Shown here: positions 19,626 to 39,524 of the stretch, in pieces
Position numbering within the stretch: position 1 is the stretch's first letter
Layout: each line of letters begins with the position of its first letter
From: a virus
IMG/VR virus record: IMGVR_UViG_3300044970_002690
Coordinates: 1 to 45,116 of that record
Direction: 5' to 3' (one strand)
DNA: 45,116 bases
The notes under the pieces: generated by a model
Told to the model about the DNA's origin: nothing
What the model saw: the letters and a program-made list of their open reading frames with translations, nothing else
Databases searched by the model: none
Position numbers and translations under genes: made by a program

Positions 19626-20576
19626 CTACAGAACGTGAGTGGACTTGCTCACGCCCTTCACGTTTGCGATCGTAAGGCCGATGACCTCCATCGCTTGCAT
19701 CGTGAGGATGTGCTTCTCCTTCTTCACGTAGGTCGTGATATCCTGCAGACGATATGCACGGCCCAGGTAGCCCGGCTCGGCGAACTTGTACACCACGTAG
19801 TCGGGAACGATCGTGCTCTTGATCGTCGCGATGTGCGGGATGTTCCAAATGCTGTACTCTTCGAGCGCTTCGAGGCCCTTGAGGACAAACTTCTCCGAGA
19901 GGTCACCACCGGCTTCGTCACGACGCCATTTCAGGAATTGTCTGGACGAAAATCTATTGGTGACCCAACAGCCATTATTGAGCGACATATTCTCCAATTC
20001 GGAGATGTTGTCCACGTAGAGTTCGCGGCTGATACGGCCGAGACGCTCGAAGTTCTGCTGGAGACCCGACGCGCCGACGCCCGAGGGGCTGCCGACGATC
20101 TGGTCCACAGTGCCGAAGAACTTGCTGTCTTCCTTCGTGTGGATCTCCTTCAGCGCATTGGCCGTGGTGATCTCACGAATGTCAGTCTTGTAGTTCATCA
20201 GCTCGAACGTGTTCTTTTGGAACTCGTTGGTCTGGACGACGTAGAAGATGACAGCGAATTTTTCCCCGCGGAAGAATTCAGTATCACCGGTGTCGTCGAA
20301 GTTCACCGCGGACGAGCCGAGGATGTCACCTTCCATCTCTTCGATGATCCAGGGCTTGCTGTCCGCGTAGAGGCTGTCGCTCAGATTGCTCTGATTGACG
20401 TCCTCGAACGGAAGCACGCGGCGCTGGATTCCGTTTTCACGGAGCTTGCGGCGGATGAGGCGCGAAGAAAGGTCGGACGCCGTCTTGAGCTGCCCTTCGG
20501 GCGCGCGGACGATGGCATCGACGAGTTCCTCGTTGAGAACTTCGGGTTCCTGAATCTGGTCTTGATTGATATTCAT
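19626..20576 (-). CDS. Major capsid protein (HK97-fold), probably proteolytically processed
   Basis: A 316-residue protein placed after protease, scaffold-like and decoration-like genes and before a strong terminator, as major capsid genes are. The composition fits a HK97-fold shell protein: an acidic helical N-arm, a long alpha segment with Glu/Gln/Asn/Phe around 135-165, a Gly-rich loop near 190, and a C-terminal segment with a Leu-Gln-Asp-Ile helix and final strands. Residues 31-34 are K-T-A-S, the same motif found near the N-terminus of the internal proteins. Cleavage after Ala33 would remove an acidic N-terminal arm, like the delta domain of other phages. AAGGA lies about 13 bases before the ATG. 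Confidence 0.8.
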   Translation of the reverse strand: MNINQDQIQEPEVLNEELVDAIVRAPEGQLKTASDLSSRLIRRKLRENGIQRRVLPFEDVNQSNLSDSLYADSKPWIIEEMEGDILGSSAVNFDDTGDTEFFRGEKFAVIFYVVQTNEFQKNTFELMNYKTDIREITTANALKEIHTKEDSKFFGTVDQIVGSPSGVGASGLQQNFERLGRISRELYVDNISELENMSLNNGCWVTNRFSSRQFLKWRRDEAGGDLSEKFVLKGLEALEEYSIWNIPHIATIKSTIVPDYVVYKFAEPGYLGRAYRLQDITTYVKKEKHILTMQAMEVIGLTIANVKGVSKSTHVL

Positions 20577-21195: not shown

Positions 21196-21717
21196 TCACG
21201 CACCTTTGCGGACCATCTCAGACCAGTCCTCTTTGTCGGAGGCCTGGGCATTGACGGGCAGCGCGGATGCGCGTTTCACCGAACGTCCCGCTGTCGGGGC
21301 ATTCGTCGAAAGATTTGCCGAGAGGTGCTGGAGCACATCGAGGGCGTAAGAGGGATCGGAACGGAGGCTGCCTGCCATCTTCACGGCGAAGTCGGGCGAG
21401 CAGAGATTGGCGGATTGCAATGCCGCCACGGTTTCGATGATGGCATTCTCCGAGAAGACATTCCGCGGCGCATTGTTTGCGCTGGCGATCTTCTCCAGCC
21501 GCACCTTCTCCAATTCAATGACGCGACCATTGGCTTCCGCCAGCTTGGCGCGGACGCCGGACAATTCATTGCGCACGCCAGTCAATTCCTGGTCCTGTGC
21601 GGCAATGCGGGCCTCGGCGGCTTTCACCATACCAAGCACCTCGGCAACCTGCCCGAGGGATTCATCCACGATGTTGCGGACTTCCTCGTCTGGTAGTTGG
21701 GTATTCGGGTCGGACAT
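21196..21717 (-). CDS. Coiled-coil protein, possible scaffold or core component
   Basis: A 173-residue protein. Residues about 10-85 form a long heptad-like helix rich in Glu, Ala, Leu and Arg, a strong coiled-coil candidate. A short helical domain follows (about 88-135, with one Cys) and a flexible, Ala/Ser-rich C-terminus with K-R-A-S. It sits between a scaffold-like gene and a decoration-like gene. Coiled-coil proteins there often belong to the internal scaffold or core. It could also be a structural protein of the mature head. Confidence 0.5.
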   Translation of the reverse strand: MSDPNTQLPDEEVRNIVDESLGQVAEVLGMVKAAEARIAAQDQELTGVRNELSGVRAKLAEANGRVIELEKVRLEKIASANNAPRNVFSENAIIETVAALQSANLCSPDFAVKMAGSLRSDPSYALDVLQHLSANLSTNAPTAGRSVKRASALPVNAQASDKEDWSEMVRKGA

Positions 21718-21738: not shown

Positions 21739-22926
21739 TTAGCGTTTGATTCCGAGGAGGGCTGCGGCCTTTTTGGCGATCTCTTCGCCTTCGGGTTCCA
21801 TGGCCTCTTCAGCGTCGCCTTCGGTCGGAGGAGGACCACCAGCGCCTGCGCCGGCATCCAGCGGAGGCGTGCCGCCTTCACCGCCACCAGCACCGCCCAT
21901 GAGGGCCTCGACGACCTGCTGCGCCTCTTCCAGCGGAATCTTGCCTTCCTGGACGAGCTGTTCGAGGACGGCGATGATCTCCTCAGGAGATGCCTGCGCC
22001 TCGGGCTCCGCTGCGCCGGGGAATTCCTCGGTCGGGATTGCCTCGGGGCCTGCCGCTTCCGGCGGCATACCAGCTTCCGGCGGCATACCGGCGGCCGATT
22101 TGGTCGTGCGGCTGAGAATGAAATCCGCATCGAGGATGCCCTGGTTGTAGGCGTCGTTCAATTCGGGATTGAGACCATTGCGCGCCGCCTCATGGGCATT
22201 GGCGAATTTGATGGCCTGCTTCTGGTCGGCGGGCGAGAGCTGGTCAAATGCCTGCTTGATCATTGCATTCTCGTAAGCGGCCTGCTTTTCCCACTGGTCC
22301 TGCTGACCGGCAGCTTCGATGAATTGCGCATGGGCGACGTAGGCGTTCTTGATAGCGCCGAGGGCCTCATCCGCGCCGAGCTTGCGCTCCATGGCTTCCT
22401 GCACACCGGCGAGCACTTCCTCATTCTCCAGCACGAAGCTGGCGAGCTTGAAATGGAATTGCGGGTCGCGGGGATTGATGAGGTTGTCCACGGAACTGCC
22501 GGCGACCTTGGCGGCCGGAGCGGCGGCTGCGGAGGCCGCTGCGGTTTTGTTCATGAGGGCCGCTGCACGCTTTGCGAGTTCCGCGGCTTTGCCGGCGAGC
22601 TTCTTCGTATTGAAATCGGGGTTCGGGTCAATTGCGGGCTGTGTGGTTGTCGAAGGCACGTTCTCGCCAACCGACGAAGGCTTGGTGTCTTTGGTCGCAA
22701 TGTCCGTCGGCGCTTTGCCCTGCTCGCCATCCCTCGGGAGCATCAGCTTCTTTTTGTCATCGCCGTCCTGCTTGGGGGCCGATGCGCTGCCTTCCGAGAA
22801 AATGGCATCAGTCGGACCCGAGTCCGGATTGGTGCCACCACCCATTGGGGAGCTGGCGGATTTGGGCTGCAAAAGCGCAGAAGCGTTTTTGACGAGGTCG
22901 GCGTAGGATTTAATGGCGGTGCTCAT
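21739..22926 (-). CDS. Scaffold-like acidic head protein
   Basis: A 395-residue protein. I chose ATG at 22926 because the longer frame would run into the protease gene and reads like non-coding sequence. The N-terminus has L-V-K-N-A-S at residues 11-16. A Ser/Pro/Asp-rich region follows, then an Ala/Lys helix with several K-x-A motifs (about 170-200), a helical core, and an acidic Pro/Gly/Glu-rich region (about 275-375) ending in a basic helix. A Gly-Met-Pro-Pro-Glu-Ala unit is repeated twice by an 18-bp DNA repeat near 22060-22095. Acidic middle and basic C-terminal helix are typical of scaffolds. Between protease and capsid is the usual scaffold position. Confidence 0.6.
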   Translation of the reverse strand: MSTAIKSYADLVKNASALLQPKSASSPMGGGTNPDSGPTDAIFSEGSASAPKQDGDDKKKLMLPRDGEQGKAPTDIATKDTKPSSVGENVPSTTTQPAIDPNPDFNTKKLAGKAAELAKRAAALMNKTAAASAAAAPAAKVAGSSVDNLINPRDPQFHFKLASFVLENEEVLAGVQEAMERKLGADEALGAIKNAYVAHAQFIEAAGQQDQWEKQAAYENAMIKQAFDQLSPADQKQAIKFANAHEAARNGLNPELNDAYNQGILDADFILSRTTKSAAGMPPEAGMPPEAAGPEAIPTEEFPGAAEPEAQASPEEIIAVLEQLVQEGKIPLEEAQQVVEALMGGAGGGEGGTPPLDAGAGAGGPPPTEGDAEEAMEPEGEEIAKKAAALLGIKR

Positions 22927-22978: not shown

Positions 22979-24481
22979 TTACTGTGCGCAGAAATTATTG
23001 TGGGCGGCAACTGCCAATTCCTGCTTCGCATCAATTCCCTTGGGGTGGTTGGTGCGGATGGCGGAGAGGGCGGCGAGCTTGTAGAGACCGTAGAGACCTG
23101 CCATGCGTTCAGCGGCGGACTTCAATTCAGTTGGCACCGCGGCGAGCAATTGCAGCTGAGGCAATTCGCTGGCGGATTTGATGATCGTGATTTTCAGGAT
23201 GCGCCGGCGGGCCGGGGCTTCCTCAATTGAAAATTTCTTTTCGGCGGAATCCAGCAGGCCTTCCACCGGGTCGGTCACTCCACCATCCACCCCGGTCACT
23301 CCGGGCGTGCTGCCCTCAAATAGATCAGGGCTGATTCCACCGCAGCCGCAGCCATCGCTGAGCAGGCGGTTGAACACATCTGGCAGCAATGAGCAGGCGG
23401 ATTTGACGACGGGGTCATTGCTGACCTCGACAATTGAACGGTTGGTGGTGTAGGCCAGGAAACTGCGGAAGGGAAGGATGGACGCGCGCTTCGCCAATTC
23501 ACCGAAGAACGTGCCGGGGCGCAGGGTGCGGACGGTGGTCAGCTCGGCATCGCTCAATTCACCATCGAGCAGTTTGGATCCCATCTCGTAGGCGTAGGCC
23601 AGCTTGGGATTGCCGGAGAGGGTACGCAGGTCTGTGTGTTTGAAGGCATCATTGAGCCAGGTCTCGTGCTCTGCCATGCGCTGCAATTGCGCCTGCTTCT
23701 CAAATCCCAATTGCAGGCCGCCAGTGTTTTCATTGAGTCCATAGAACGCAGCCCAATCCGTGCCGGTGATGATTTGGGGCTTTGCGCTGGCGGCTTTCTT
23801 CATGCCCTCGTCGCCGTGGAACATGTATTGCAGGTAATGCGCTGTGCGGTCCGCCGGGTATTTGACGTCGCTGATGTCGAAGAAGGTCGGGTGGTCGTTC
23901 CAGACGAAGGCGTACTTGTTGAACTCAGGCATCCACTGGTTCATGTGATTCTTGGCGTGATCGCAATACTCAGTCGGACTGGGGGCGAGATTACCACAGC
24001 AGTTGCAGCGATCATTGGGAACGCGCGCAGACATTGAATCGCTGCGGGCACTGCCCTTCTTTATGCTCTCGTAGATATCCTCGCATTTGGAAATCTCCCC
24101 ATGAACGATCAACTCGATGCGGGACATCGTCGGATTGTAGCGGGCGCATTTGACGGAGCCGATGGCCAGCCGGCGATTGGCGTGGTTGTGCTCCCGGAAA
24201 TAGGCGCCATGCGAAACGAACGTCGGATGGTATTTGGTGTTGGCGTCCTTGGACCAACCGTCAGCATTGCGGTTCTGCCCGTAGATCTCGGTGTCACCCA
24301 TTGCCACCAAATGCTGTGCGAAGAATCCCTTCGGCGGTCGGTATTGTTCCAGCAGGCTGCGCGGCATCACCTCCGAGGCGGCGGACTTCACCCTGGCGTC
24401 GAAATCCAGAAAGCGGGACATCACGCCTCCGCAGGCTTTGAAGAGGGCGTCCTGATCGTCTTGGTGGTGGGTCTTGATCAT
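22979..24481 (-). CDS. Prohead maturation protease
   Basis: A 500-residue protein. Residues about 55-155 match the phage prohead protease pattern: an Asn-x-Asn-x-Asp-Gly-Trp segment, a Tyr-His-x-Thr-Phe-Val strand, a His-Asn-His pair of candidate catalytic histidines (98/100), an Ile-Gly-Ser-Val strand, a Met-Ser-Arg-Ile-Glu strand, and a Ser-rich Met-Ser-Ala-Arg segment with candidate nucleophiles Ser149/Ser151. A cluster of Cys159, Cys161, Cys162, Cys173, His175 and His179 follows and may bind zinc. The C-terminal 300 residues are extra. K-S-A-A occurs at 32-35 and several K-x-A motifs occur later, suggesting self-cleavage. ATG at residue 21 is an alternative start. Confidence 0.75.
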   Translation of the reverse strand: MIKTHHQDDQDALFKACGGVMSRFLDFDARVKSAASEVMPRSLLEQYRPPKGFFAQHLVAMGDTEIYGQNRNADGWSKDANTKYHPTFVSHGAYFREHNHANRRLAIGSVKCARYNPTMSRIELIVHGEISKCEDIYESIKKGSARSDSMSARVPNDRCNCCGNLAPSPTEYCDHAKNHMNQWMPEFNKYAFVWNDHPTFFDISDVKYPADRTAHYLQYMFHGDEGMKKAASAKPQIITGTDWAAFYGLNENTGGLQLGFEKQAQLQRMAEHETWLNDAFKHTDLRTLSGNPKLAYAYEMGSKLLDGELSDAELTTVRTLRPGTFFGELAKRASILPFRSFLAYTTNRSIVEVSNDPVVKSACSLLPDVFNRLLSDGCGCGGISPDLFEGSTPGVTGVDGGVTDPVEGLLDSAEKKFSIEEAPARRRILKITIIKSASELPQLQLLAAVPTELKSAAERMAGLYGLYKLAALSAIRTNHPKGIDAKQELAVAAHNNFCAQ

Positions 24482-24487
24482 TTGAAA

Positions 24488-25639
24488 TTACGGGGCGACG
24501 TGCGTGGGAAGACCACCGAAGGTTTTGTCCAATATGTCCGGAAGATAATAGCCCACGCCAGCGGCTGCCAGGCCTTTGGTCAGGCGGCCTTTGGCCAGGC
24601 GTTCAAATCCGCCGCGCGCTCCAACGCGGGCGCGTTCGGTGGCTGCGCTGAGTGCATCACGTAGTGATGGGGCAGATGCACCGATGACCCCAGCACCCCC
24701 ACTAGCTCCGCTCATTCCGGAGATGTCAGGCATGCGCCCGAACAAAGATTTGCTCCAGTCTTTCAATGGGCCGAAGTCCGTCTTTCCGTAATTGATTCCA
24801 GCACCACGCAGTTTGCCGAGCAGCCCGCGGGTTTCATCATGCCCCAATGCCCCACCTGCGAGATTCTGCATTTCGCTTTTCGCGAATACACGACCCTTGC
24901 CGGTTAATTTGTCTTTCAAATTGTCCAAGATGCTTTGCTTGGCTTCCACGAAGACTTGCGGGTTAGCTGTTGCACCTCCCTGAGTCAGCCCATTGGCACC
25001 AGGGCGAATGCCGGGGAGCTTTTCCGAGATGTGCACGATATCCCTTAATGGGTCTTTCATGAATGGGGTCTTGCGTGTCGTCCACCCATAGCCTCCGAGT
25101 CCGAACAATGCTCTAATTTGCGGACTATGAAAGAGTGTCGATCCTGGGGATTTGTCATTCTTGGGCAGCGCATTCATGATTTTGTCTACCCCGTGGCTCA
25201 GCGCTGCGGCAGAGCCTCCGCCAAGCAATCCTGCGAGCAGCGCATTGCGTCCGACACGCATCGTCTTGCCTCCAAATCCCTCACCAGGGCGGCGATCGGT
25301 CATCATGGTGCCGATGCCGCCGGCAGCCGCAGAGCCCAGCCCGGCGAGCACTGCGGGGTCTTCGTAGGTCTTCGAGTCCATGACCTTGTTTCCCACCTGC
25401 GTGGCTTTATCCTTCACCCAACCTGCACCATCGGAGAGATTCTTTTTGAGGGAGTCCATCCACCCAGCATGTTTGACGCCGACGGAAATGAGGCGGTGCC
25501 GTTCGGCAATTGAATCCGCAAAGGGAAGCTCACGCGCTTCACCGACTTTTACGCCGTGCTCCGCAGCCGCTGCAGTGCAATGGGCAAGGACGGCGCTGGC
25601 GGCTTTGATGAACAGGGAATTGATTTCAGTTGGTGCCAT
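24488..25639 (-). CDS. Glycine-rich internal virion protein, possible ejection protein
   Basis: A 383-residue protein. The N-terminus carries I-K-A-A-S at residues 11-15, like its head-region neighbours. Residues about 95-160 contain two Gly/Ala-rich hydrophobic stretches of the glycine-zipper type, separated by a basic loop. A second Gly/Ser-rich region lies around 300-330, and the C-terminus has another Gly-rich hydrophobic stretch. Such proteins can insert into membranes, as the ejection proteins of podoviruses do. Position next to the protease supports a virion role. No family recognised and the function is inferred. Confidence 0.55.
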   Translation of the reverse strand: MAPTEINSLFIKAASAVLAHCTAAAAEHGVKVGEARELPFADSIAERHRLISVGVKHAGWMDSLKKNLSDGAGWVKDKATQVGNKVMDSKTYEDPAVLAGLGSAAAGGIGTMMTDRRPGEGFGGKTMRVGRNALLAGLLGGGSAAALSHGVDKIMNALPKNDKSPGSTLFHSPQIRALFGLGGYGWTTRKTPFMKDPLRDIVHISEKLPGIRPGANGLTQGGATANPQVFVEAKQSILDNLKDKLTGKGRVFAKSEMQNLAGGALGHDETRGLLGKLRGAGINYGKTDFGPLKDWSKSLFGRMPDISGMSGASGGAGVIGASAPSLRDALSAATERARVGARGGFERLAKGRLTKGLAAAGVGYYLPDILDKTFGGLPTHVAP

Positions 25640-26027: not shown

Positions 26028-27533
26028 TTAGGCGTAGCGAGCGTCTTCAGTTCTGGCTCGGGTCTCTTCGGCCTGCGAATGGGATTTGTCGATATCGGCG
26101 AGCGTCTTATGTGTCTGGATGGGCACACCGCCGTATTGCAGCGCCTCACGCAGGGCGAAGCGTAGCTGATTGGGATTGTGCGCAATGCGCGGGTCGCCCT
26201 TCTGCAAATCATTGGCGAGGTCCACGAGATGCTGCGGATCGGCCTCCCCGAGAATCGGGTCGGTCATGATCAGGCGCTGCAGGTTGGACACGAAGCTCAC
26301 ATCCCGGACGGCATGGTCAATTCCCTTCTGGCGAAACTTGGGTGCATATTTGCTGTCGCCGGTGGCCTTCATCTTGTCGAGGATGCCGGGCATTGCACCG
26401 ACCGTCTTGCCAACGCTCCCCTTGGGGATGAAGTCATTGATGGCGTCGATGATTTGGCTGGCCGTGTCCTTCTTCGCCGACCCTCTAGGGGTGGGCGCAT
26501 CGCGCTCGGGCTGTCGGCTGTTTCTAGGGGTGGGCGCATCGCGCTCGGGCTGTCGGGTGTTCTGCTGTCGGGTGCGCTGGGCTTGCTGCTGCATGGTTTC
26601 CACGCGACCACCTATCGAAGCAGCAGGACTCTGTTCCGTCTGGGTCCAGTCCGCGGCAGGTGCTGCATCGTCCCGCTCTCCCGTATCATCCACATCTGGG
26701 ACCTGCGGCTCTCTGGTAAATGCCAGCTTCTCAAACTCCTCCGTCTCCTGCTTGGCGAGCAGCGCATAGGCATTGTGCAATTGTAGGGCATCGGCGGCCG
26801 TCTTGATGAGCGGCAGGACATTGGTGCGATCGTGGAGCAGGCTGCGCTTGGTAGCCACCTTCGTCCAGGGCGTCAATTGCACCGAGACATGCGCTGTGGC
26901 CTGCTTGACTGCCGCTTTGAAAATCATCTGCCCCTCGGCGTCTGCCAATTGCGAGACGTCCTCTTCCATTTGGGCGAAGAAGGGCTTGTTGGCGCCGATG
27001 TATTTGGCGAGCTTGGTCACCGCAGTGCGATACAGTGCGCTCTGGTCCTCCTGCAAATCACCCAGCCGGGCGACATTGATTTCCGTGACGCGGCGGGCAG
27101 CAATGAGGGCGGCGGCCTTTTCGCCGGGAGTCGGGGGCTTTGCTGCGGGCTCCGCAAATGCCATCTTCTCAACCGGATTGTTTAGGGGCTTCTTGCCGGT
27201 CGCGCCGGACATGAAACGGGGAATTGGTTTGTGCTCCGCCGGCTTGGTGTCGGGCTTCTTGTCCTTGGCCGCCGCCGGAGCCTTGTAGGTGCCGTAGTCC
27301 GAGGCCAGCTTCACGGTATCGATGAGGGGAATTGAAGCGCCGCGCTGATCGGGGTTGTTGTCCATCCAGGCCACGGAGCGCGCCGTATTCAAAGTCATCG
27401 CCATCTTCGTGAGCTGCTCAGGGGCGAGATTGTTCTCCCGTGCGTAATTGATGAGGATGTCCTCGGCGCTGGCAGATTTCTGAATCTGAGGCAGGAGGCT
27501 TTCAATGACTTCGAGCACGCGACTTGGTGACAT
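26028..27533 (-). CDS. Large internal virion protein with K-x-A motifs
   Basis: A 501-residue protein. The N-terminus has Q-K-S-A-S at 18-22, then a helical segment with an Asn-Leu-Ala-Pro-Glu-Gln-Leu motif and an Asn-Thr-Ala-Arg helix, then Arg-Gly-Ala-Ser and a Leu-Ala-Ser-Asp-Tyr-Gly strand. That layout feels familiar from structural proteins of other large phages, from memory only. Six or more further K-x-A sites follow. A Lys/Pro linker lies near 90-140, helical domains around 140-270, and a Gln/Arg/Pro linker with a 13-residue direct repeat at about 325-355. The C-terminal 130 residues are helical. It is probably packaged in the head and processed there, by analogy. Confidence 0.6.
   Translation of the reverse strand: MSPSRVLEVIESLLPQIQKSASAEDILINYARENNLAPEQLTKMAMTLNTARSVAWMDNNPDQRGASIPLIDTVKLASDYGTYKAPAAAKDKKPDTKPAEHKPIPRFMSGATGKKPLNNPVEKMAFAEPAAKPPTPGEKAAALIAARRVTEINVARLGDLQEDQSALYRTAVTKLAKYIGANKPFFAQMEEDVSQLADAEGQMIFKAAVKQATAHVSVQLTPWTKVATKRSLLHDRTNVLPLIKTAADALQLHNAYALLAKQETEEFEKLAFTREPQVPDVDDTGERDDAAPAADWTQTEQSPAASIGGRVETMQQQAQRTRQQNTRQPERDAPTPRNSRQPERDAPTPRGSAKKDTASQIIDAINDFIPKGSVGKTVGAMPGILDKMKATGDSKYAPKFRQKGIDHAVRDVSFVSNLQRLIMTDPILGEADPQHLVDLANDLQKGDPRIAHNPNQLRFALREALQYGGVPIQTHKTLADIDKSHSQAEETRARTEDARYA
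26484..26556 (-). repeat. 34-bp direct repeat, 39-bp period
   Basis: Two identical 34-base copies (26484-26517 and 26523-26556) with a period of 39 bases, encoding a tandem 13-residue unit R-Q-P-E-R-D-A-P-T-P-R-x-S in the linker of the 501-residue protein. The identity shows a recent duplication. Confidence 0.9.
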
Positions 27534-27583: not shown

Positions 27584-28837
27584 TCAGCGCTTTGCCAACC
27601 GACGGGCCAGTTCCCGCAATGAGGCAGTCTTGTTGATCTCCTGTCCGTTCTGCACAATGCCCGGAACCACAGTGCGCTGCCAGTTACGGATGTTGTCGTA
27701 GATTTCCGGGCTGCGCTGATTTGTTTTGCGCATCTGCCGGAACATGCGCTGGGCATCCAGTGGGTATTGCTGAATCCCCTTCTCGAATTGCGACTCATCG
27801 GGTTGCGTGGGATTTACTCCCTGTAAAAACTTGTCGTAATCCTGCGGGCTTTCAAATCGCTTCCCGGTGTTCTGGTATTGATGCTCCTGCAATTGCGACA
27901 TGTAATCCCGCATCTCGGCAGAGTGCACATCATGATGCAGGTTGCCATACACAGGCAATTTGTTCTGTTGCTTCAGCGTCTCGCGGAAATGCACCGGACG
28001 TTCTCCAGAAGGACGCCTCGACCAATGCAGCCCACTTCCCATGCGCGGCTGATCAGGATATGGGGTCGCATACGTGGGGACATATTTGTCTGGATGCTCC
28101 AGGCGTAAAGCTGCAGTGTCGTAAGCATCCACCCCGGTACCCGGCGGACTTGCAAGCGCTCCGTGATACGCCTCATGCTTCAGCGAATCCTCATCATCCA
28201 TTAACGATTTAGCCGCCTGCCTGGCTGTCATGTTCGAATCTCGTAGACCCTCTGGATCCTTGAGGACGCTGTCTGTAAACTTCCGTCTCTCGTCCGAACC
28301 CCACATGTGGACGCTGTCAGCGAGCGGGTCGTAATGTGGCCCGAAAACTGCGGCATCCGCATCATTGCGCAACACCGGCACCGGCTGCGTCCATTTATTT
28401 TGATCTCCTGGCAAACCGGATGCTGTATTGTAGGCATGCGCCTTTTCCATTTCGCTTTGCAGGTTATTTCCGTAATACGGTTGCTTGTAATATGCTGGGG
28501 TCACGGAGGACAGCGTAGGCCCGGCAAATGCGGAGGGAATTGGCTTCACAGCGGGGGCGCCTGTTGCTTGCGGCGCGACGCCTGCCCTAAAACCACCGCC
28601 TACCACCTGACTTGTTGGCGGTGGTGGGGTGGGTGTGGGAGGCTGTGGTAATTGACTTGGTCCCGTAAGGAATGAGGGTGGTGGAGTCTTACCTGTCACG
28701 CGGTCCCATACGTCACCGATTGATTTTGGCCATTTGAATGCGGACCGTCCTGCTGGTGGTGAAGAGACAGAAGGCAGAGCCGGAGCAGCCAGCTTCACCA
28801 TGCTCATCCGTGCTCCCAATATGCCGGGCGTCATCAT
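27584..28837 (-). CDS. Virion protein with Pro-rich linker and HExxH motif
   Basis: A 417-residue protein. The first residues, best read from the second ATG (28834), match the shared tag: M-T-P-G-I-L-G-A-R-M-S-M-V-K-L-A against M-N-P-R-L-F-G-A-Y-L-S-T-V-K-S-A in the next two tagged genes. A Pro-rich linker covers about 50-105. The domain from about 120 contains His221-Glu-Ala-Tyr-His225, an HExxH zinc-protease motif preceded by an acidic helix, and further His residues near 290-315. The C-terminus has K-T-A-S and a basic end. A zinc peptidase acting on the cell envelope or on head proteins is possible. The HExxH may also be chance. Confidence 0.55.
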   Translation of the reverse strand: MMTPGILGARMSMVKLAAPALPSVSSPPAGRSAFKWPKSIGDVWDRVTGKTPPPSFLTGPSQLPQPPTPTPPPPTSQVVGGGFRAGVAPQATGAPAVKPIPSAFAGPTLSSVTPAYYKQPYYGNNLQSEMEKAHAYNTASGLPGDQNKWTQPVPVLRNDADAAVFGPHYDPLADSVHMWGSDERRKFTDSVLKDPEGLRDSNMTARQAAKSLMDDEDSLKHEAYHGALASPPGTGVDAYDTAALRLEHPDKYVPTYATPYPDQPRMGSGLHWSRRPSGERPVHFRETLKQQNKLPVYGNLHHDVHSAEMRDYMSQLQEHQYQNTGKRFESPQDYDKFLQGVNPTQPDESQFEKGIQQYPLDAQRMFRQMRKTNQRSPEIYDNIRNWQRTVVPGIVQNGQEINKTASLRELARRLAKR

Positions 28838-28852
28838 TGCTGGTATTTCAAA

Positions 28853-29365
28853 TCAGAGCTGCGCGATCAATGCGCCGAAGATGCGGGGGTTGATGGATGC
28901 CACTTTCTTGAGCTTCGCGCGCCGCGCCTTTTCCTCATCCTGTTTAATTGCATGCCCGGAGGAAATACCTTGATGAGCCGATTTGACAGTGGAAAGGTAG
29001 GCGCCGAAAAGACGCGGGCTGATGGACGCCTTCTTTTTACTTTCCTGCTCTTCGCGTAAATCCTGCATCACCTGCTTTGGGAGGATCAAACCATGCAAAC
29101 CCGACAGTCCCGCACCTGTCACGGAACCAATCCCTGCCCCGGCGACCGGCAGCGCCAGAAGATGCAACAGGATTTCTTTTGTATCCATATTTGCGTAACC
29201 CTTGCGCGCAATACGGTTGAGGCCCACACCCAGACCCACAGCAGCGCCGCCCAAGGCATTTCCTCCCGCATGTCGCGCGATATTGGACCCGGCGGCTTCG
29301 AGTCTCGAAGACATATCAGCTGATTTGACTGTGGAGAGATACGCACCAAAAAGACGAGGATTCAT
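28853..29365 (-). CDS. Small glycine-zipper protein with three copies of the head tag
   Basis: A 170-residue protein. It starts with the tag M-N-P-R-L-F-G-A-Y-L-S-T-V-K-S-A. A near-perfect second copy occurs internally after K-K-K-A-S, and a shortened third (I-N-P-R-I-F-G-A-L) forms the C-terminus after K-K-V-A-S. Between first and second copies lie two Gly/Ala-rich hydrophobic stretches (about 35-50 and 70-95) that could span membranes. A charged Lys/Glu helix separates the later copies. Cutting after each K-x-A would release the central glycine-zipper part. It looks like a small ejection or membrane-active internal protein. No family recognised. Confidence 0.65.
   Translation of the reverse strand: MNPRLFGAYLSTVKSADMSSRLEAAGSNIARHAGGNALGGAAVGLGVGLNRIARKGYANMDTKEILLHLLALPVAGAGIGSVTGAGLSGLHGLILPKQVMQDLREEQESKKKASISPRLFGAYLSTVKSAHQGISSGHAIKQDEEKARRAKLKKVASINPRIFGALIAQL
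28977..29023 (-). repeat. 47-base head-tag repeat, internal copy
   Basis: The second copy of the tag-encoding sequence, inside the 170-residue gene. It differs from the other two by a handful of bases, mostly silent in the tag peptide. A shorter, decayed copy encodes the C-terminus near 28857-28895. Confidence 0.9.
29319..29365 (-). repeat. 47-base head-tag repeat, start of the 170-residue gene
   Basis: Encodes the first 15-16 residues of the 170-residue protein. The 18 bases nearest the start codon match the copy at 35855-35901 exactly. Confidence 0.9.
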
Positions 29366-29409
29366 ACTCCCGTCAGTCTAAACGAGAGAGAGAGCAAGTC
29401 GATTCCAAA

Positions 29410-30351
29410 TCAGTTCACCCCAGCCCCAGACACTTCCATCGTCGGCTTCCCGCGGTAGAACTCCGTGGTGCGCTTGGCGTGGGCTGCGGCTTTGACCCGC
29501 TGCATTTCCGCCATGAGCACCTGACCGCCCGAGTTCTGGAACGGAGAGGCCTTCTCATCCTGCCCGCCTGCCTTGGCGGCCGAGATAAGCCGCAGGGCTG
29601 AATTGACCCCATGCCCGGCCTCGGGCCCCTGGTTGAGCCAGCCGTTCATCGCGAGGATGAGCCCGTTGGCCATGACGAAAGATTCCAACCGCTGCACGGT
29701 ATCGGCACTGAGGTATTTGGTCACGAGCTGGGAGGAGAAGCCGGCCAGATGCAATACATGCGCCGCGCCATTGTTGAAGCCAGCCCGGAGCAATTGCACG
29801 TCGAGCCCCTCGTTGGTGGTGTAGCCATTGAAGAATTCCACCGCGCGACCGTTCGGGTAAATGATCGAACTGAGGAATAATTCGTCCGCCTTCCGATCCC
29901 AGATGTTGAAGAAGAGGATCTCGTAAGCGGAAATTACCTCCTGCTTTTTGTTCAGCACTTTGGCGATCTTGTCCAAATCCATATCGCCCGAGACCAGCAG
30001 CGCATTTGCGACGGACCGCTCCTTGGCGTAATCGGCACCCATCCATGTGATGGCTTCGGCCAATGCCTTGTCCTTGTATTTGATCGGATTGATGGCGTAG
30101 AGGTAGGCCCGCCACACCCATTCATCCCGTCCGTTCAATGGCACCTGCATGGGTCGTCGGTTGAACGCCATGGTCCTGGCGAAGTTCCAGCCGAAAGACA
30201 GATCCTTGTAGGCAGTGGCGAACCGACCAATCTCCGGGTCCGTAATGCCCACCTGCGTATCCGCGGCACGGATGCGGAAGTTGTCGCGAACGATGTCCTC
30301 TTCCGGTGCGGGCAATATCCGGCACATTTGATTGATGCGGTCGGCTTTCAT
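29410..30351 (-). CDS. Helical protein with HTH-like segment, unknown function
   Basis: A 313-residue protein. I chose ATG at 30351, which overlaps the upstream stop as ATGA; the frame upstream is non-coding in character. Residues about 100-170 contain two helices followed by an Ile-Ala-Lys-Val-Leu-Asn turn and a Tyr-Glu-x-Leu-Phe-Phe-Asn segment. This resembles HTH-containing phage proteins often found near packaging genes, from memory only. The rest is helical with a Gly/Asn-rich middle. It lacks the N-terminal K-x-A tag of its neighbours. It could be a DNA-binding or terminase-associated protein, but this is not shown. Confidence 0.55.
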   Translation of the reverse strand: MKADRINQMCRILPAPEEDIVRDNFRIRAADTQVGITDPEIGRFATAYKDLSFGWNFARTMAFNRRPMQVPLNGRDEWVWRAYLYAINPIKYKDKALAEAITWMGADYAKERSVANALLVSGDMDLDKIAKVLNKKQEVISAYEILFFNIWDRKADELFLSSIIYPNGRAVEFFNGYTTNEGLDVQLLRAGFNNGAAHVLHLAGFSSQLVTKYLSADTVQRLESFVMANGLILAMNGWLNQGPEAGHGVNSALRLISAAKAGGQDEKASPFQNSGGQVLMAEMQRVKAAAHAKRTTEFYRGKPTMEVSGAGVN

Positions 30352-30620
30352 AAAAGATTCGAGGCCTCTGATTTGAATTCCGACAGGGCATCCTGCATAT
30401 GGGCCGCATTGATGGCGCCTCTGCCAGCGCCGGACAATTGCTCGCTCACGCAGCCACCCACCTCGACAATGATTTCCCGCAGGGATTCCGGATGCTTCTG
30501 TGCGAACAGGAATGCCGCCCAACGCCAGAGCTGATCGCGCAGGCATTGCGTATGCATCTCGTCCATTACGCTTTCCATTTCGGTGAGGGCGTCTTCGATT
30601 GTGGGTGTGGGGGACTTCAT
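30348..30620 (-). CDS. Small helical protein, unknown function
   Basis: A 90-residue acidic protein starting with ATG at 30620, which overlaps the stop of the tiny membrane protein upstream (ATGA); its own stop overlaps the next start in the same way. Helices carry Glu, Met and Leu; Trp, Phe and two Cys lie in the middle. Three consecutive 4-base overlaps show tight translational coupling. No family recognised. Confidence 0.65.
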   Translation of the reverse strand: MKSPTPTIEDALTEMESVMDEMHTQCLRDQLWRWAAFLFAQKHPESLREIIVEVGGCVSEQLSGAGRGAINAAHMQDALSEFKSEASNLL

Positions 30621-30745
30621 TGGGCGATAGCCAATTCGACGATATACCACCCCAGCCGAAGGAAACAGCCGAAGAAAATGGCAGTGACTGCGACGACAAC
30701 AGCGTCACCGACATTTCCCTTTGTGCGTTCAGGTCTGGGTTCCAT
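30617..30745 (-). CDS. Tiny single-pass membrane protein
   Basis: A 42-residue product with ATG at 30745. A charged N-terminus (Glu, Arg, Lys) precedes a hydrophobic stretch of about 25 residues with Val, Ala, Phe and Trp. The stop overlaps the next gene start as ATGA, which supports it being real despite its size. Role unknown. Confidence 0.55.
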   Translation of the reverse strand: MEPRPERTKGNVGDAVVVAVTAIFFGCFLRLGWYIVELAIAQ

Positions 30746-30792
30746 ATGAGAACCAGCATTCAACACCCCACACCGCGCGTCCAGCGCAAATG

Positions 30793-33700
30793 TTACGCCA
30801 TCGGGGCCGAGCCCTGATCCGCGTTCGGCGATTTGCGCATCAGATTGAGCACCATGTCGCCAAAGGATTTGAAGTTGGAAATCAATTCCTGCTCGATATC
30901 AGGCGTATCGTCCTGGCCGTATGCCTTTTCAAAGTCAGCCGGCTTCCAGAAGAACAGGAACAGCGAACGCCCGATAGCATCGAGGCCCTCCTCCATCTTG
31001 GGAATGTAGCGCTCCATGCTGGCCGCGGCGTCGAACGTCTTGATGAGCGAGCCGATGAGCTTGTGCTCAAATACATTGGGCAGGTTCTGAGACTTCTGGA
31101 TGTCCGCCAATTGCATTGGGTCCTTGGTCAGCATGTCTTCCATGCCGACATGATCTTTGATTTCGTGGCGATCGGAATTCATGGAGCCGCCCATGGACGG
31201 GTCGTGCACCTCGTTGATACTGATGCTGCGAATTGGTGGCGCGTCCGTGCGGGTGCCTAGCTCGAAGCTCTGTGGCTCCTGCTCGCGCGCCATCACCTGG
31301 CTATCGTAGCCTTCCGTGAAGCGTGGACGATCAATCAGGCGCGTGACGGCCATTGCATGCTTCTCCTGCGGCTGCATGATGAACGAGACCGACTTGCCCG
31401 ATGCGACATTACCGACCAGCTCCATCGCGGCATCCGCGGCGATATGGCAGCCACCGGCGAGGAAGGCAACGGCTGCAGCCTTGGTGTGCGTGGTGGCGTA
31501 TTTCCGGCCGCCGAAATTGAGGGAGATCTTTCCGCTCTCATCGAGCATGGAGATTTGCCCCTTGAAGAGTTTCCCATACAGCAGCGAATCCCACACCACT
31601 TTTTGCGGCATGAGGGAAGGCGCGGCGACGAGGCGCTTGCAGGGGATCTCCACAGTGCCCAGCGAGGAACCTCCGCCGGCTGCCGCGCGATGATTGGCGT
31701 TCTCGGGGAGCTCCTCCAAATCCATTTCGATGAAGCGGACCTCTCTATTGAGGATGCCATGCTGCCAGTCGCATTTGGGGGCATCGGGATTCAGGAGCAA
31801 TTCCATCTCGCCGTAGCCGGAGATGTTGTAGGTATCGACGCTGTTGCAAATCAGCGTCTTGGTGCCCGACGGATTCTTGATGACTCCCGAGATGAACACT
31901 GCCGTGTCCGCGCAATTGCCGGACTTGGGATTGTAAATGACGTAGGCCTTGCCGGCGGTCGGGCTCTCCACGCCCACGCTGCTGACGCCGGCCTGTTCTT
32001 CCGGAATCACCTTGCCCACATATGCGCCGACCTCGACCCGCTTCATCGTATTCACCGGGGAGGTGAAGATGAAGGCGAGGCTTTGCGTCGACGAGCCAGG
32101 GTGGCAATTGAAGATCGAAGACCGCGTATTACCAACGCCGCACAATTCCACAGGCGTGGCCGCAATGACCTTGCCGTTCTTGCCGTCCATTGAGGGCATC
32201 TCGTAAACGCCATTGCCCGTCACCGACTCCATGGAGTGGTGGGCGTCTTCATATACAGCCGTCAATTCATCGGAGGGGCGCACATCGGTCATGGAGAAGC
32301 CATGCTTCACCGTCTGGGCGTAAAGCGCAGGGGTGACGCTGGCATTCTTCACGCCACCGAAATGCATGACGAGCTGCGGGACGTAGGCGGCTTTTTTTAC
32401 CTGCGTGATCTCCAGGGCCTCCGCGGGGAGGAATTGCTCCATGTCGCCATTGGTGGCGGTCATCAGCGCTTCAGCAAAGGCGGCCGATTTGGTCAGCGCG
32501 CCATGAATGGCGAGACACGCAGGACGCTTGCCGTCGGTGACGAGGTATTCCCTCAGGGCACCGGCGGATTTGAAAGGGTTGGTGGTGTCCACCGGAAGCA
32601 TCTCGCCCACGTAGGAGGTCCACCAGTCGGAGGCTTCCTTTTCCATGCGCGGGATGAAGCCGGCGGACAATTTGGTGACCGGTAGGCGTGATGTTTTACC
32701 ATAGGCGCGCGGACTGCGCGGACCACCGCCACCGCCACTACCGACCATAGGCCTTTGAGCCATCGGCGCTTTGGACACCGTATTCGGTGTCTTCTTGAGG
32801 CTAGCCCGGTATTGTGCCGGGGTGTAGGTGTTCATGCTATCCAGCCGGGAATGCCCCGGACCGGATCCTGCCAGCATCTTTTGCATGCTGGCCACGTCGC
32901 CGGGAGAACGGGCGTTGAATGTGGATTTGGTGGCTGCGTAAAAGCGCGCCTTGTCTGCGTCCGACACCTGGTTCGGATTGAATGGAAGCGATGGTGCATG
33001 TTCTCCGGGCTGGGGCGGCCTTGCCGAAACAGGCGACTGCTGTAGGTAGCTGGGCGTGGGTTCTTGGGGAGGGGCGGGAGCCGGATCTGCTGAGGCTTCA
33101 TTCTCCACCTCAGCGTTGACCGCTGGTTCCACCGGAAGAGAGAAGGCCCGTGCATTCGCGGCTGCAGAGTCGAGGGGTGCGAAGTCAGAGGCGGGCTGGT
33201 TATTCCCGCGCTCTTGCGTGGGGTGCCCGAACCGTCCATTGCCACCCCCGTAGAACTGAGTCGGCTCCGCCATATAATTCACCTTAGCGTCGAGGGGTGC
33301 GAAGCCAGAGGAGGACGGGGTGCTGGGTGCTGCTGGCGTGATGGGAGGCGGAGGCAACGTCGAAGCACCGGGTGCGGGTGTCGCAGGGGACTGGGGCAAA
33401 TTCGCGCTGCTGGTTGCTTGCGAGGCGGGAGTCGGAGGCAACGTCGAATCGCCAACTGCGGGAATAGGCGAGGGATCAGCGGTAACTTCCGGCACGGTGG
33501 GCGACTTGCCCAGCTGCGTTGTAAGGTCGCCAAACTTAGCTCGCTTCTCCCGCATATCCTCAAATGCCAGAGCCCGCGTAAATGCATCCTCCACGAATTG
33601 TCCGGCATCTTCGCCATGCTCTTCGCGCGCCATCTTGATGAATTCGGAATTGCCCATGCTGGAGGCAATCTTGTTGCGCATCGGCATGATGAGCGGTTTC

Positions 33701-34128
33701 AAATCCGTGCCGGTATTGAGGCGGTCGAGTCGGGTGCGGGCGATGCCCGTGCCGGGCTCGGAGATGGCCTTCTCCATCAAATAGGAAATCCATTCCTCCG
33801 TGCACGGCTTCATCTTCTTCTGCTTCACCTGGTAGAGCAGCTCCTGGCCTTTGACCTGTCCATTGAGGAAGAAGCTCGGAATGTAAATGAGATCCTTGTT
33901 GATGCGGAAGGCGAAGATGCCCACAAGGCGCGTCTTGTCCTCATTGGCGTAGATCATCTCGAAGCCGAGGAAATACGGCGGCTGCATCAGCTTTTGGGCG
34001 CGCTGGGCGCAGCGGCTGTACGCCTGATCGCCGAACGCTCTTTCGATCTCTGGAGTGGAGAGAACTGCGCTGGCATGCTTCTCCCAGTCGTATTGAACGG
34101 ACGGGTCCTGCAAAGTGGGTGTCTTCAT
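30793..34128 (-). CDS. Very large virion protein with Pro-rich linker
   Basis: A 1111-residue protein from ATG at 34128; a TTG at 34170, directly after the upstream stop, would add 14 residues. K-H-A-S occurs at 17-20. Residues about 45-130 form a mixed domain with Tyr-Phe-Leu-Gly-Phe-Glu and Phe-Phe-Leu-Asn-Gly-Gln strands, a pattern I associate with structural proteins of large phages. A linker of about 250 residues is rich in Pro, Ala, Ser and Thr and holds repeated Phe-Ala-Pro-Leu-Asp units. The C-terminal 600 residues mix beta domains and a final helical domain with Tyr-Ile-Pro-Lys-Met-Glu, Gly-Arg-Ser-Leu-Phe-Leu and Phe-Lys-Ser-Phe-Gly. K-S-A-A, K-K-A-A, K-N-A-S and K-E-A-S sites occur along it. 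Confidence 0.6.
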   Translation of the reverse strand: MKTPTLQDPSVQYDWEKHASAVLSTPEIERAFGDQAYSRCAQRAQKLMQPPYFLGFEMIYANEDKTRLVGIFAFRINKDLIYIPSFFLNGQVKGQELLYQVKQKKMKPCTEEWISYLMEKAISEPGTGIARTRLDRLNTGTDLKPLIMPMRNKIASSMGNSEFIKMAREEHGEDAGQFVEDAFTRALAFEDMREKRAKFGDLTTQLGKSPTVPEVTADPSPIPAVGDSTLPPTPASQATSSANLPQSPATPAPGASTLPPPPITPAAPSTPSSSGFAPLDAKVNYMAEPTQFYGGGNGRFGHPTQERGNNQPASDFAPLDSAAANARAFSLPVEPAVNAEVENEASADPAPAPPQEPTPSYLQQSPVSARPPQPGEHAPSLPFNPNQVSDADKARFYAATKSTFNARSPGDVASMQKMLAGSGPGHSRLDSMNTYTPAQYRASLKKTPNTVSKAPMAQRPMVGSGGGGGPRSPRAYGKTSRLPVTKLSAGFIPRMEKEASDWWTSYVGEMLPVDTTNPFKSAGALREYLVTDGKRPACLAIHGALTKSAAFAEALMTATNGDMEQFLPAEALEITQVKKAAYVPQLVMHFGGVKNASVTPALYAQTVKHGFSMTDVRPSDELTAVYEDAHHSMESVTGNGVYEMPSMDGKNGKVIAATPVELCGVGNTRSSIFNCHPGSSTQSLAFIFTSPVNTMKRVEVGAYVGKVIPEEQAGVSSVGVESPTAGKAYVIYNPKSGNCADTAVFISGVIKNPSGTKTLICNSVDTYNISGYGEMELLLNPDAPKCDWQHGILNREVRFIEMDLEELPENANHRAAAGGGSSLGTVEIPCKRLVAAPSLMPQKVVWDSLLYGKLFKGQISMLDESGKISLNFGGRKYATTHTKAAAVAFLAGGCHIAADAAMELVGNVASGKSVSFIMQPQEKHAMAVTRLIDRPRFTEGYDSQVMAREQEPQSFELGTRTDAPPIRSISINEVHDPSMGGSMNSDRHEIKDHVGMEDMLTKDPMQLADIQKSQNLPNVFEHKLIGSLIKTFDAAASMERYIPKMEEGLDAIGRSLFLFFWKPADFEKAYGQDDTPDIEQELISNFKSFGDMVLNLMRKSPNADQGSAPMA

Positions 34129-34170
34129 TTGGTATTCGTTGACTCTATTGGAATTGTGTGTCGTTGGCAA

Positions 34171-35901
34171 TCAGCGACCCATCATTTTGCTCACGAATTT
34201 CGGATCGCGCATTTCCTTTGCCGTATTGCGCAGGAACTCCGGGTCGGACATTTTGTAGGCCATGCCGATGCGGTCGATGATGGAACCATCAGCCTTTCCG
34301 GCGAGATCGTCGAGCATGTTTGAGGCATAGCCGGCGGCACCCTGCACGCCGAGCTGCGCACCGTCATACATCCCTATGCCATGACCAGCCTTCCCCGCAC
34401 CCCAGAGTGAGGTACCTGCACCTAGCATTCCGCCCAACCCTTTGCCGGTACCCGCCCCGCCCGCAAGCACATTCCCACCAAAACGCCCGACGCTACCCAG
34501 CGCTCCCAGCGTCTTCTGCCCCCATTGCGGAAGCTGGTTGAAGGCGCGCATCATTGGTGCCACGCGATTGGTCTGGAATGCAGAATTGGCTGCGTTGGTG
34601 GCGTTGGTTGCAGTGCCGCGAATTTTACGGCCCCAGTCGAACAAGCGGTTTCTCCATGTGCCTGCAGCGGCAGGAGCAGCAGCCCCCAGGCCGGCAACTT
34701 GTGGATTTTCTTTTCCGAGGAACTTCGCCGCGCTGCCAAGCATTTTAGGGATCGCGCGCACTTTATTAGCAATGGCCTTGCCGCCCCAGCTCAGTGCCGC
34801 CGGGAACGCTTTTGCCAGCAAACTGAGGGCATCCTTCTCCATCGCCGCCGACTTCTGCATATTCAAATGCCAGCCGCTATTGCCGGAATCATCCGAGTAG
34901 GCCGTCGGGTCCAGTTGATTCCAATTCTTCAAACCGCTGATGTCGACTTTGGGGGCCTTCAGGGTTTCGAATTGGGAATTGGAGGCAGTTTTCTTTTTGT
35001 CCGTTTTGGTGCGCGTCTTGTCTGCTGGATAAATCGAGTTTTCAAATATGTCCTCATTACCAAGAGGACTGTCGCCCTCTTGTTTATATCGGTCCGGATG
35101 CATGGCTGGTAGCATAAGGGAGGCCACAACTCCACGCCCCATTGGCGAAGAACCAAGTTCTCGATCTTCGGGATCCATATTACCAAGTTCATCTTTCATC
35201 CATGCCTGCAGACGATCATAATCCTTTCTCGGAGACGAGAATAACCGAGTCAGAAGTCTGGGCTCCATTGTGCGCTCGGCGTCTAATCGCACGGAGGATG
35301 CACCATCGGAGGGACCCCAGAGAGACTTAATTCCAACGGGGGTCTTCAGCTTTTTCCAGAATAGATTTGCGTTCTTCTCCTGCGCCTTTTCCTTGTCCGT
35401 TTTGGTGAGCGCCTTGCCGGCGCGGTAGCCCGCATAGGCACCGCCTCCGTAGCCGAGAATCGGCAGCAGGGAGCGCAATGCCGGGCTCTGTATGCCCGCG
35501 TGTTCCAGGGCCTCGGAGGCTTCTGCTCCCAGCATGTGGCCGAGATTGCCGCCCACCCCCGCCGTCATGCCGCGTAACGTGCCGGGCACCATTCCGGAAT
35601 TGCCGGGCAGTGCACCCCCGAGACCACCAAGGGCTGCCGGACCAAACAGCCCCACCATGGAGTTCAGTCCGGCTGCACCCACAGGCATCGGTGTTTCAGG
35701 CATTTTCTGTTTACTCACGCTGTCCATGACTTTGTCGGCCTCTGATTTACCTGGGGATCCGGACGGCTGTGACATGAAAGCTTTGGCCTTCTCCTCCAAC
35801 ATAGCCGTATCAGCGGCATCCTCCGCGGCGGTTGGTTTTGTAGTCCTAGTGACCGCAGATTTGATCGTGGAAAGGTAGGCACCAAAAAGACGAGGATTCA
35901 T
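34171..35901 (-). CDS. Large glycine-rich virion protein with head tag
   Basis: A 576-residue protein starting with the tag M-N-P-R-L-F-G-A-Y-L-S-T-I-K-S-A. Residues about 75-160 contain Gly/Ala/Leu-rich hydrophobic segments of the glycine-zipper type. A charged middle (about 165-330) follows, then K-K-K-T-A-S, Q-K-S-A-A and a long Gly/Ala-rich C-terminal half (about 375-550) with more potential membrane segments. Composition recalls internal ejection proteins that form a channel through the cell envelope. It lies next to the 1111-residue virion gene. No family recognised. Confidence 0.6.
   Translation of the reverse strand: MNPRLFGAYLSTIKSAVTRTTKPTAAEDAADTAMLEEKAKAFMSQPSGSPGKSEADKVMDSVSKQKMPETPMPVGAAGLNSMVGLFGPAALGGLGGALPGNSGMVPGTLRGMTAGVGGNLGHMLGAEASEALEHAGIQSPALRSLLPILGYGGGAYAGYRAGKALTKTDKEKAQEKNANLFWKKLKTPVGIKSLWGPSDGASSVRLDAERTMEPRLLTRLFSSPRKDYDRLQAWMKDELGNMDPEDRELGSSPMGRGVVASLMLPAMHPDRYKQEGDSPLGNEDIFENSIYPADKTRTKTDKKKTASNSQFETLKAPKVDISGLKNWNQLDPTAYSDDSGNSGWHLNMQKSAAMEKDALSLLAKAFPAALSWGGKAIANKVRAIPKMLGSAAKFLGKENPQVAGLGAAAPAAAGTWRNRLFDWGRKIRGTATNATNAANSAFQTNRVAPMMRAFNQLPQWGQKTLGALGSVGRFGGNVLAGGAGTGKGLGGMLGAGTSLWGAGKAGHGIGMYDGAQLGVQGAAGYASNMLDDLAGKADGSIIDRIGMAYKMSDPEFLRNTAKEMRDPKFVSKMMGR
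35855..35901 (-). repeat. 47-base head-tag repeat, start of the 576-residue gene
   Basis: Encodes the first 15-16 residues of the 576-residue protein and is nearly identical to copies at 29319-29365 and 28977-29023, about 6 kb away, in other genes. Confidence 0.9.
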
Positions 35902-38369: not shown

Positions 38370-39524
38370 TCAAAAACGACCGGTCAGCTGTGCTTTTGCT
38401 TCGGAATTGATCTCGGGGGCAAGACGCCAGCCTTTGTACTGTTTTGAGTACCCCACACAAAGTTGCCACACCGATTGAATGTGTAATTGATGTGCTTTCG
38501 CAAACTTAGTGACACCACACACCACATGTTCGCTTCCGGTAGGGTCGATGAGAATGTATGTCGGCACCGGATTCTCCGGAAGGGTCCACCCTTTATGGAC
38601 GTTGCTGTTGCCGAGCACCACCTCATTTAATCGTCCGGGCTGCAATCCGTGATTACGTGCAAAAGCGCACACATTTGTTCCTTCATAAATGTTCCCTTCA
38701 AATAGAAGCCTGAATGGTGAATTGGGTTTTCGTCGTTGCGTCACTTTGGGACGCAGACCTCGCCCGTGTTTTTTAGGGCGTAGCGGATGTGTGACCCTGT
38801 AATCGTCCAATTCCTGTCGTTCCTTCTTGAATCGCTCCCACTCGGGAGCTTCGCCAACGCGATGCCAGCCTTTGCATGAATGCCATTGCCCGTTAAGCAC
38901 ACGCCCAAGCCCCGCACGATCGAGTCCGTGCTCGCGACAAAACTGCGTTACGTTTTTACCACTGTAAACAACGCCATCTTTTTCCAAGGCAAAATCTTTT
39001 GAGTACAATTCCTTGTATCTCAGCTTTGCAGATTCCGTGCATGGTGGTTTCGATGCCTTGATGCGCGCTTTCACATCCGATGGTAGGGCGCGTAAGACCG
39101 CGGATATCTTCGATCTGGTAGCCTCCGAGTGCACAGCCCCAAGACGAGACTGCGCTTTCGGATTAGTGTTAAATCCCACCGCACGATCGTAGGATTTGAA
39201 TTTATCCAAATACATTTGCTCCCTGGCTACTGTCTCATCCTTGCAGGTCAGCTCGATTACGTGAAAAGAAAATGCCTGAATCCCGTGTTTTACAAACGCT
39301 GCCTGCAAATAAGGGGTGTGGTGTTTCCCGAGAATCAGAGCGCTACGATGCTTACGGAAGCGATCACGCAATCCGCGCTTACCCGCTGCGCTCCCTAGAT
39401 ATAGCTTACCATTCGGTTTACAGAAAATTGCGTAAATGCCGCAGGATTCAGGCAGTGCGAGCTGCGACACCGCCGCGAGATCCATTGAGATTAACGCAGA
39501 GTCTATGAGTTCTTGTGTGTTCAA
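38370..39524 (-). CDS. GIY-YIG homing endonuclease with NUMOD-like repeats
   Basis: A 384-residue free-standing homing endonuclease. The GIY-YIG domain covers about 28-110: Gly-Ile-Tyr (29-31), Tyr-Leu-Gly-Ser (42-45, Leu for the usual Ile), a basic helix with Arg53-Arg57, and Glu102 as the probable metal ligand. A NUMOD3-like segment (His-Ser-Glu-x-Thr-Arg-x-Lys-Ile) follows at about 132-140. Three repeats with Phe-x-x-x-His-x-Leu and a terminal Lys-Gly-Trp lie at about 179-220, 273-313 and 323-366 and should bind DNA. The start is TTG overlapping the polymerase stop (TTGA), or ATG at 39485. The region looks more A/T-rich than its neighbours, a sign of transfer. Confidence 0.85.
   Translation of the reverse strand: MNTQELIDSALISMDLAAVSQLALPESCGIYAIFCKPNGKLYLGSAAGKRGLRDRFRKHRSALILGKHHTPYLQAAFVKHGIQAFSFHVIELTCKDETVAREQMYLDKFKSYDRAVGFNTNPKAQSRLGAVHSEATRSKISAVLRALPSDVKARIKASKPPCTESAKLRYKELYSKDFALEKDGVVYSGKNVTQFCREHGLDRAGLGRVLNGQWHSCKGWHRVGEAPEWERFKKERQELDDYRVTHPLRPKKHGRGLRPKVTQRRKPNSPFRLLFEGNIYEGTNVCAFARNHGLQPGRLNEVVLGNSNVHKGWTLPENPVPTYILIDPTGSEHVVCGVTKFAKAHQLHIQSVWQLCVGYSKQYKGWRLAPEINSEAKAQLTGRF

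Follow-up and report, generated by a model that had tools for sequence, protein, structure and literature searches.

A shared N-terminal tag on otherwise unrelated genes

The stretch of DNA analysed here, hereafter the window, is the 45,116-bp IMG/VR record IMGVR_UViG_3300044970_002690 from a large uncultured bacterial virus. An earlier note on it had pointed to a 16-residue peptide, here called the tag, at the start of proteins of 170 and 576 residues and, in diverged form, of a 417-residue protein whose gene lies just outside the range described there. All three proteins do begin in this way, and the 170-residue protein repeats the tag internally and, shortened, at its C-terminus, as had been claimed (Table 1). 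A second record of this virus, IMGVR_UViG_3300044715_001611 (G001; 185,656 bp), contains nearly all of the window sequence. A search of the whole of G001 added one further gene outside the window (G001:172907-173647), encoding a 246-residue protein that starts with MNPRLFGAYLSTVKYA and ends with a shortened form, INPRIFGAMLAQLR. The tag common to the 170-, 576- and 246-residue proteins is MNPRLFGAYLST(V/I)K(S/Y)A.

In the genome-wide scoring of G001, the four close copies scored 69-75, and the background did not rise above about 33. The diverged tag of the 417-residue protein scored 36; about 9,000 shuffled N-termini all stayed below 27. Chance is therefore excluded as the origin of the copies. 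Similarity among the tagged proteins ends at residue 16; we looked for a larger homologous domain common to them and found none beyond that point, in keeping with the earlier description of the rest of the genes as unrelated. The tagged proteins had no significant match in Pfam or NCBIfam, their bodies had no homologue among the relatives that were fetched, and the tag itself was found neither in five relatives nor in IMG/VR viruses other than that of the window. The 417-residue protein holds an HExxH motif that resembles those of zinc metallopeptidases, with no family match, and may be a head-packaged enzyme.

The DNA copies of the tag proved less alike than the near identity that had been reported for them. 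The copies beginning the 170- and 576-residue genes agree at 41 of 48 positions, and six of the seven changes are silent. Between the N-terminal and internal copies of the 170-residue gene, 37 of 48 positions agree and nine of the 11 changes are silent, while a third comparison to the same N-terminal copy gave 10 differing positions out of 48, nine of them silent. Random changes would be expected to alter about 5-7 residues, against the 1-2 observed (P <= 0.0005 in the three comparisons). As the differences are mostly silent, selection acts on the peptide. DNA identity was somewhat above that of independent coding of the same peptide in four of the six copy pairs (P 0.001-0.02). Duplication is the probable origin of the tag copies, with selection on the peptide now holding them alike.

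K-x-A is enriched in head proteins

The tag ends in V-K-S-A, an instance of lysine, any residue, alanine (K-x-A). Through its protease, sheath and capsid genes the window's virus is related to the cultured Salmonella phage Arash and Vibrio phages D69, D148 and D181, which share a similar gene order. In IMG/VR, the group is represented by at least 173 matching stretches. Because contigs L003-L006 match the window's virus at 100% identity, they offer no evolutionary comparison. Residue pairs were scanned in head proteins from four lineages: the window's virus, Arash, D69 and L043, a distant contig. K-x-A was the most enriched pair at gap 1 in all of them, and no pair at gaps 0-3 exceeded it. Observed and expected counts were 80 and 37.5 in the window's virus (z = 6.9), 46 and 21 in Arash (z = 5.4), 50 and 22 in D69 (z = 6.0), and 57 and 22 in L043 (z = 7.4); Arash and D69 were the cultured relatives tested. 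In tail proteins and in the other proteins of the window's virus, the motif stood at or below expectation. When the three tagged proteins were left out, the window's head proteins kept 69 occurrences against about 28 expected. The motif fell within the first 40 residues of 11/12, 7/9, 7/9 and 10/12 head proteins in the four sets, compared with 0/14, 0/11 and 1/8 tail proteins.

This blind scan was also run on nine T4 head and core proteins as a positive control; it ranked IxE first and LxE fourth, and among phiKZ head proteins SxE ranked sixth of 362. These results match the specificity reported for the T4 prohead protease, L/I-x-E (PMC9026906), and the phiKZ cleavage motif, SxE (PMC5694885). 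Across 230 sites, the context of K-x-A was [LM][EV]-K-x-A/[SA], where the slash marks the predicted cut, with L or M at P5, E or V at P4, and S or A at P1' (z = 11 for P1' Ser). The KKKAS and KKVAS preceding the internal and C-terminal tags of the 170-residue protein fit this context and could be cut, as had been suggested.

The major capsid protein was identified by a profile match to gp27 of phage G (PDB 6wkk, E 5.6e-8), a similarity to a solved capsid protein that places it with the HK97 type. All 60 distinct sequences compared keep its K31 and A33, with a minimum pairwise identity of 25%. A site model trained without Arash, counting a protein as positive when it held two or more strong sites, picked out 7 of the 59 Arash proteins labelled structural in the annotation and none of its 183 other open reading frames (ORFs). 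With the exception of gp242 and gp97c, the proteins picked out (five of the seven) are homologues of training-set proteins or belong to the matching head module.

Because it is head-specific and conserved in the capsid, and because the same scan recovers the T4 motif, K-x-A is probably the prohead-protease cut site of this phage family, which would thus have a K-x-A protease in place of an x-x-E one. The earlier proposal of a sorting or cleavage cassette is accordingly the reading with the best support, given the head-specific, capsid-conserved motif; it is selection on the peptide, and not recent copying, that keeps the copies alike.

In phage G head proteins, K-x-A was the top gap-1 pair but weakly so (z 2.8), and in Cane17 it was not seen as the top gap-1 pair. 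The phage G capsid protein gp27 (L056 23289-24137) has no Lys at the corresponding place of the capsid alignment (GRVALAQ), and the motif is therefore not shared by all of the protease relatives. The phage G portal protein and gp19 carry K-x-A near their N-termini.

Relatives carry tags of their own

Shared N-termini of other sequence were found in relatives. G005 (IMGVR_UViG_3300028374_000008), whose capsid protein shares about 30% identity with that of the window, has variants of SFENGYNRTMKxAGL at the start of seven genes, which lie in two places. The N-terminus M-(0-3)-NKYLEKIA occurs in many other relatives, on three to seven genes in each 20-kb locus, and its copies vary freely in their codons; the pattern NKYLxKxA gave up to nine matches per record, against none for the reversed pattern. 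The relatives' tags each end at K-x-A, or at R-x-A in two copies. Pairs of alike N-termini upstream of K-x-A numbered 9, 11, 15 and 34 in G001, G005, G013 and G012, respectively, compared with 0-3 for the control motifs AxK, RxA, KxS, ExA and KxL. In G005, the three RxA pairs may represent R variants of that virus's own tag. G021 had one possible pair, and a tag pattern guessed for G021-like phages found no match.

The bodies behind the tags span 67-576 residues and include ATP-grasp-like, Gly-rich and Pro-rich repeat proteins. As in the window's virus, similarity among the tagged G005 proteins ends at about residue 16, one tandem pair excepted. One of them (72861 downwards, L074) resembles R2K ATP-grasp ligases with an E-value of 0.0012, below Pfam's cut-off. 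In contigs L104 and L118, at 7.8-9.5 kb, three adjacent genes near the capsid gene have the N-terminus MSNLNSxFDxLRGWP, a separate repeated N-terminal family without K-x-A. A set of small paralogous genes on the minus strand of L090 (12891-15187), with N-termini like MSFKFKVGDLV, is probably an ordinary small-gene family.

A candidate capsid-targeting propeptide

We consider it likely that the tag serves as a capsid-targeting propeptide that is removed by the phage's prohead protease. Cargo would be drawn into the assembling prohead by the tag body, MNPRLFGAYLST, probably through an interaction with the scaffold or core; the candidate scaffold protein of the window is the natural guess for the binding partner. 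The V-K-S-A end would serve as the recognition site, and the candidate prohead protease would cut after K-x-A, leaving the cargo free inside the head and probably ejected with the DNA. The Gly-rich composition of the putative cargo, with occasional hydrophobic stretches, would fit ejected proteins. In the 170-residue protein, cuts are predicted after residues 16, 113, 130 and 156; as its second and third tags are flanked by further K-x-A sites, processing of the precursor would leave a core of about 97 residues and loose tag peptides. These internal and C-terminal copies are the oddest part of the system. The C-terminal copy of the 246-residue protein, which has K-S-S upstream, may stay attached. 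While the tag copies, the peptide-level selection, the head-specificity and conservation of K-x-A and the independent tags of relatives were observed, we infer the binding partner, cutting, encapsidation and ejection from sequence.

A broader version remains tentative and, to us, somewhat less probable than its opposite: an exchangeable address system, in which a lineage-specific tag matched to the scaffold recruits fast-changing cargo that is always freed at K-x-A, with the window's 170-residue precursor acting as a multivalent linker that the protease would resolve into core and free peptides.

The assignment of the protease is strong for the relatives and weak for the window's own sequence. 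All ten members of the protease family matched phrog_18299, the PHROG head maturation protease (best E 2.6e-19), and H98 and S149, with putative catalytic roles, are invariant in the ten sequences. An invariant CxxC...CxH cluster at residues 159-175 suggests a zinc-binding insert, which is not known to be typical of T4 gp21.

Several points weigh against a removable propeptide. The window's protease alone matches the PHROG family weakly (E 0.012), a profile comparison (hhalign) of the protease with T4 gp21 was not significant and aligned only a short NRN...P stretch, and the AlphaFold models were unusable, with a predicted local distance difference test (pLDDT) score of 39.5 for the capsid protein and 34.8 for the protease. 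The K-S-S before the C-terminal copy of the 246-residue protein is not K-x-A, and the gene of that protein adjoins fibre-like genes and not head genes. No convincing shared N-terminal tag was found in G006, in G022 or, at the threshold used, in Arash, in which respect Arash differs from the window's virus. For this phage family, a search of the literature returned neither mass spectrometry nor mutant data, and nothing on cleavage, packaging or localisation.

The tag and K-x-A might instead be docking peptides that stay uncut and bind scaffold, portal or capsid, with K-x-A as part of the binding surface. We think this unlikely, though a binding motif would likewise be head-specific and N-terminal, cleavage is so far deduced, and the internal and C-terminal copies would suit multivalent docking. 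It sits poorly with the distribution of the motif, which is densest in the candidate scaffold and present again in the protease, a pattern that cut proteins would show, and with a P1' position that is strongly Ser or Ala, like SPN3US cut sites. The invariant capsid K-x-A also lies close to the N-terminus, where T4 gp23 loses its propeptide.

That the tagged proteins are paralogues, with bodies diverged past recognition and an N-terminus kept for ordinary structural reasons, seems improbable. SPN3US offers a precedent in gp53 and gp54, whose N-termini are identical at 34% identity overall (PMC5694885), and several of the putative cargos are Gly-rich, but neither the abrupt end of similarity in G001 and G005 nor the wide range of body sizes and types would be expected of such a family. 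Least credible, and very improbable in our view, is a nucleic-acid feature such as a translation-initiation or recombination cassette, copied between genes with the peptide as by-product: the slight excess of DNA identity in four of six pairs would agree with it, but the differences are mostly silent (6/7, 9/10, 9/11), one copy lies inside a gene and another at a C-terminus, and the NKYLEKIA copies are free in their codons.

Comparison with known packaging signals

A removable propeptide of the kind proposed here would resemble the capsid-targeting sequence (CTS) of T4, whose internal proteins ipII and ipIII begin with MKTYQEFIAEA. In both cases, a short N-terminal peptide is common to several otherwise unrelated proteins, which in T4 are internal to the head; in T4 it ends at the phage's own prohead-protease motif, and here at K-x-A, the predicted one; and in both the cargo genes vary between relatives. 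The tag is unrelated in sequence to MKTYQEFIAE and has neither an L/I-x-E site nor an MKTYQEFI-like stretch. The P1 residue is Ala in K-x-A and Glu in the L/I-x-E of T4, and unlike the T4 signal, the tag also occurs internally and C-terminally and differs by lineage. By analogy, we regard the two as working alike and not as homologues.

In SPN3US and phiKZ, propeptides are cut by gp245 and gp175, respectively (PMC5694885, PMC10052503), the SPN3US motif being AxE/S with V at P4 (PMC10052503). The P3-x-P1 form and the preference for P1' Ser and P4 Val are shared with the sites described here, whereas those phages use AxE or SxE in place of KxA. The identical N-terminus of SPN3US gp53 and gp54, 15 residues long, is a further likeness, but these are true paralogues, and most SPN3US propeptides exceed 100 residues. 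P1 DarB has an N-terminal packaging signal (PMC9024508), and its N-terminal peptide is enough to direct a protein into the capsid; the portion of that report drawn on here concerns one protein and 30 residues and describes no multi-gene tag.

The principle of a removable targeting propeptide is thus not new: T4 provides it, SPN3US gives hints of it, and P1 has a packaging signal. Our literature search returned nothing relevant on KxA with prohead protease, on YLEKIA or on Arash, and as far as it shows, the K-x-A rule with its capsid conservation, the lineage-specific tags, found on as many as about nine genes, and the tag copies at internal and C-terminal positions of a protein are new. K-x-A would be a prohead-protease specificity unlike the Glu-directed ones of T4, phiKZ and SPN3US. 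As a sequence rule, a short N-terminal tag ending in [LM][EV]KxA/[SA] would flag unnamed head-packed proteins across a large, mostly uncultured phage group, and would point to fast-changing cargo that is likely delivered into hosts. Since Arash is cultured, the rule is directly testable by mass spectrometry.

The head module of the window

The candidate scaffold gene sits between the protease and capsid genes, as it does in Arash, and several further proteins of the module carry K-x-A (Table 1).

Table 1. Tagged genes, tag copies and head-module genes of the window (positions in the window)
Feature	Position	Strand	Remarks
170-residue protein, three tag copies	28853..29365	-	Predicted core residues 17-113; one hydrophobic stretch, Gly-rich
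N-terminal tag of 170-residue protein	29318..29365	-	MNPRLFGAYLSTVKSA
Internal tag of 170-residue protein	28976..29023	-	ISPRLFGAYLSTVKSA; residues 115-130; KKKAS just before
Shortened C-terminal tag of 170-residue protein	28853..28894	-	INPRIFGALIAQL-stop; residues 158-170; KKVAS just before
576-residue protein, putative tagged cargo	34171..35901	-	Gly-rich; GxxxG 20 vs 10 expected
N-terminal tag of 576-residue protein	35854..35901	-	MNPRLFGAYLSTIKSA
417-residue protein, diverged tag	27584..28837	-	HEAYH (HExxH) motif at 28163-28177
Diverged N-terminal tag of 417-residue protein	28787..28837	-	MMTPGILGARMSMVKLA
Candidate prohead (head maturation) protease	22979..24481	-	K-x-A near own N-terminus; H98, S149 invariant
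Candidate scaffold	21739..22926	-	Densest in K-x-A, 16 vs about 5 expected; start taken at MSTAIK
Major capsid protein	19626..20576	-	Profile match to phage G gp27
K31-T32-A33, capsid K-x-A near N-terminus	20478..20486	-	
501-residue head protein	26028..27533	-	K-x-A 13 vs 5
383-residue head-module protein	24488..25639	-	Gly-rich; N-terminal K-x-A (SLFIKAAS)
1125-residue head-module protein	30793..34170	-	K-x-A 14 vs 6.6
173-residue head-module protein	21196..21717	-	N-terminal K-x-A

Elsewhere in the window, an RNA-polymerase-like gene (39521-42577) holds an apparent intein of about 405 residues at 40385-41599 (CLKEGTMV ... VLENGLIVKN, then TAGV). The adjoining gene at 38370-39524, read by eye, looks like a GIY-YIG-like homing endonuclease.

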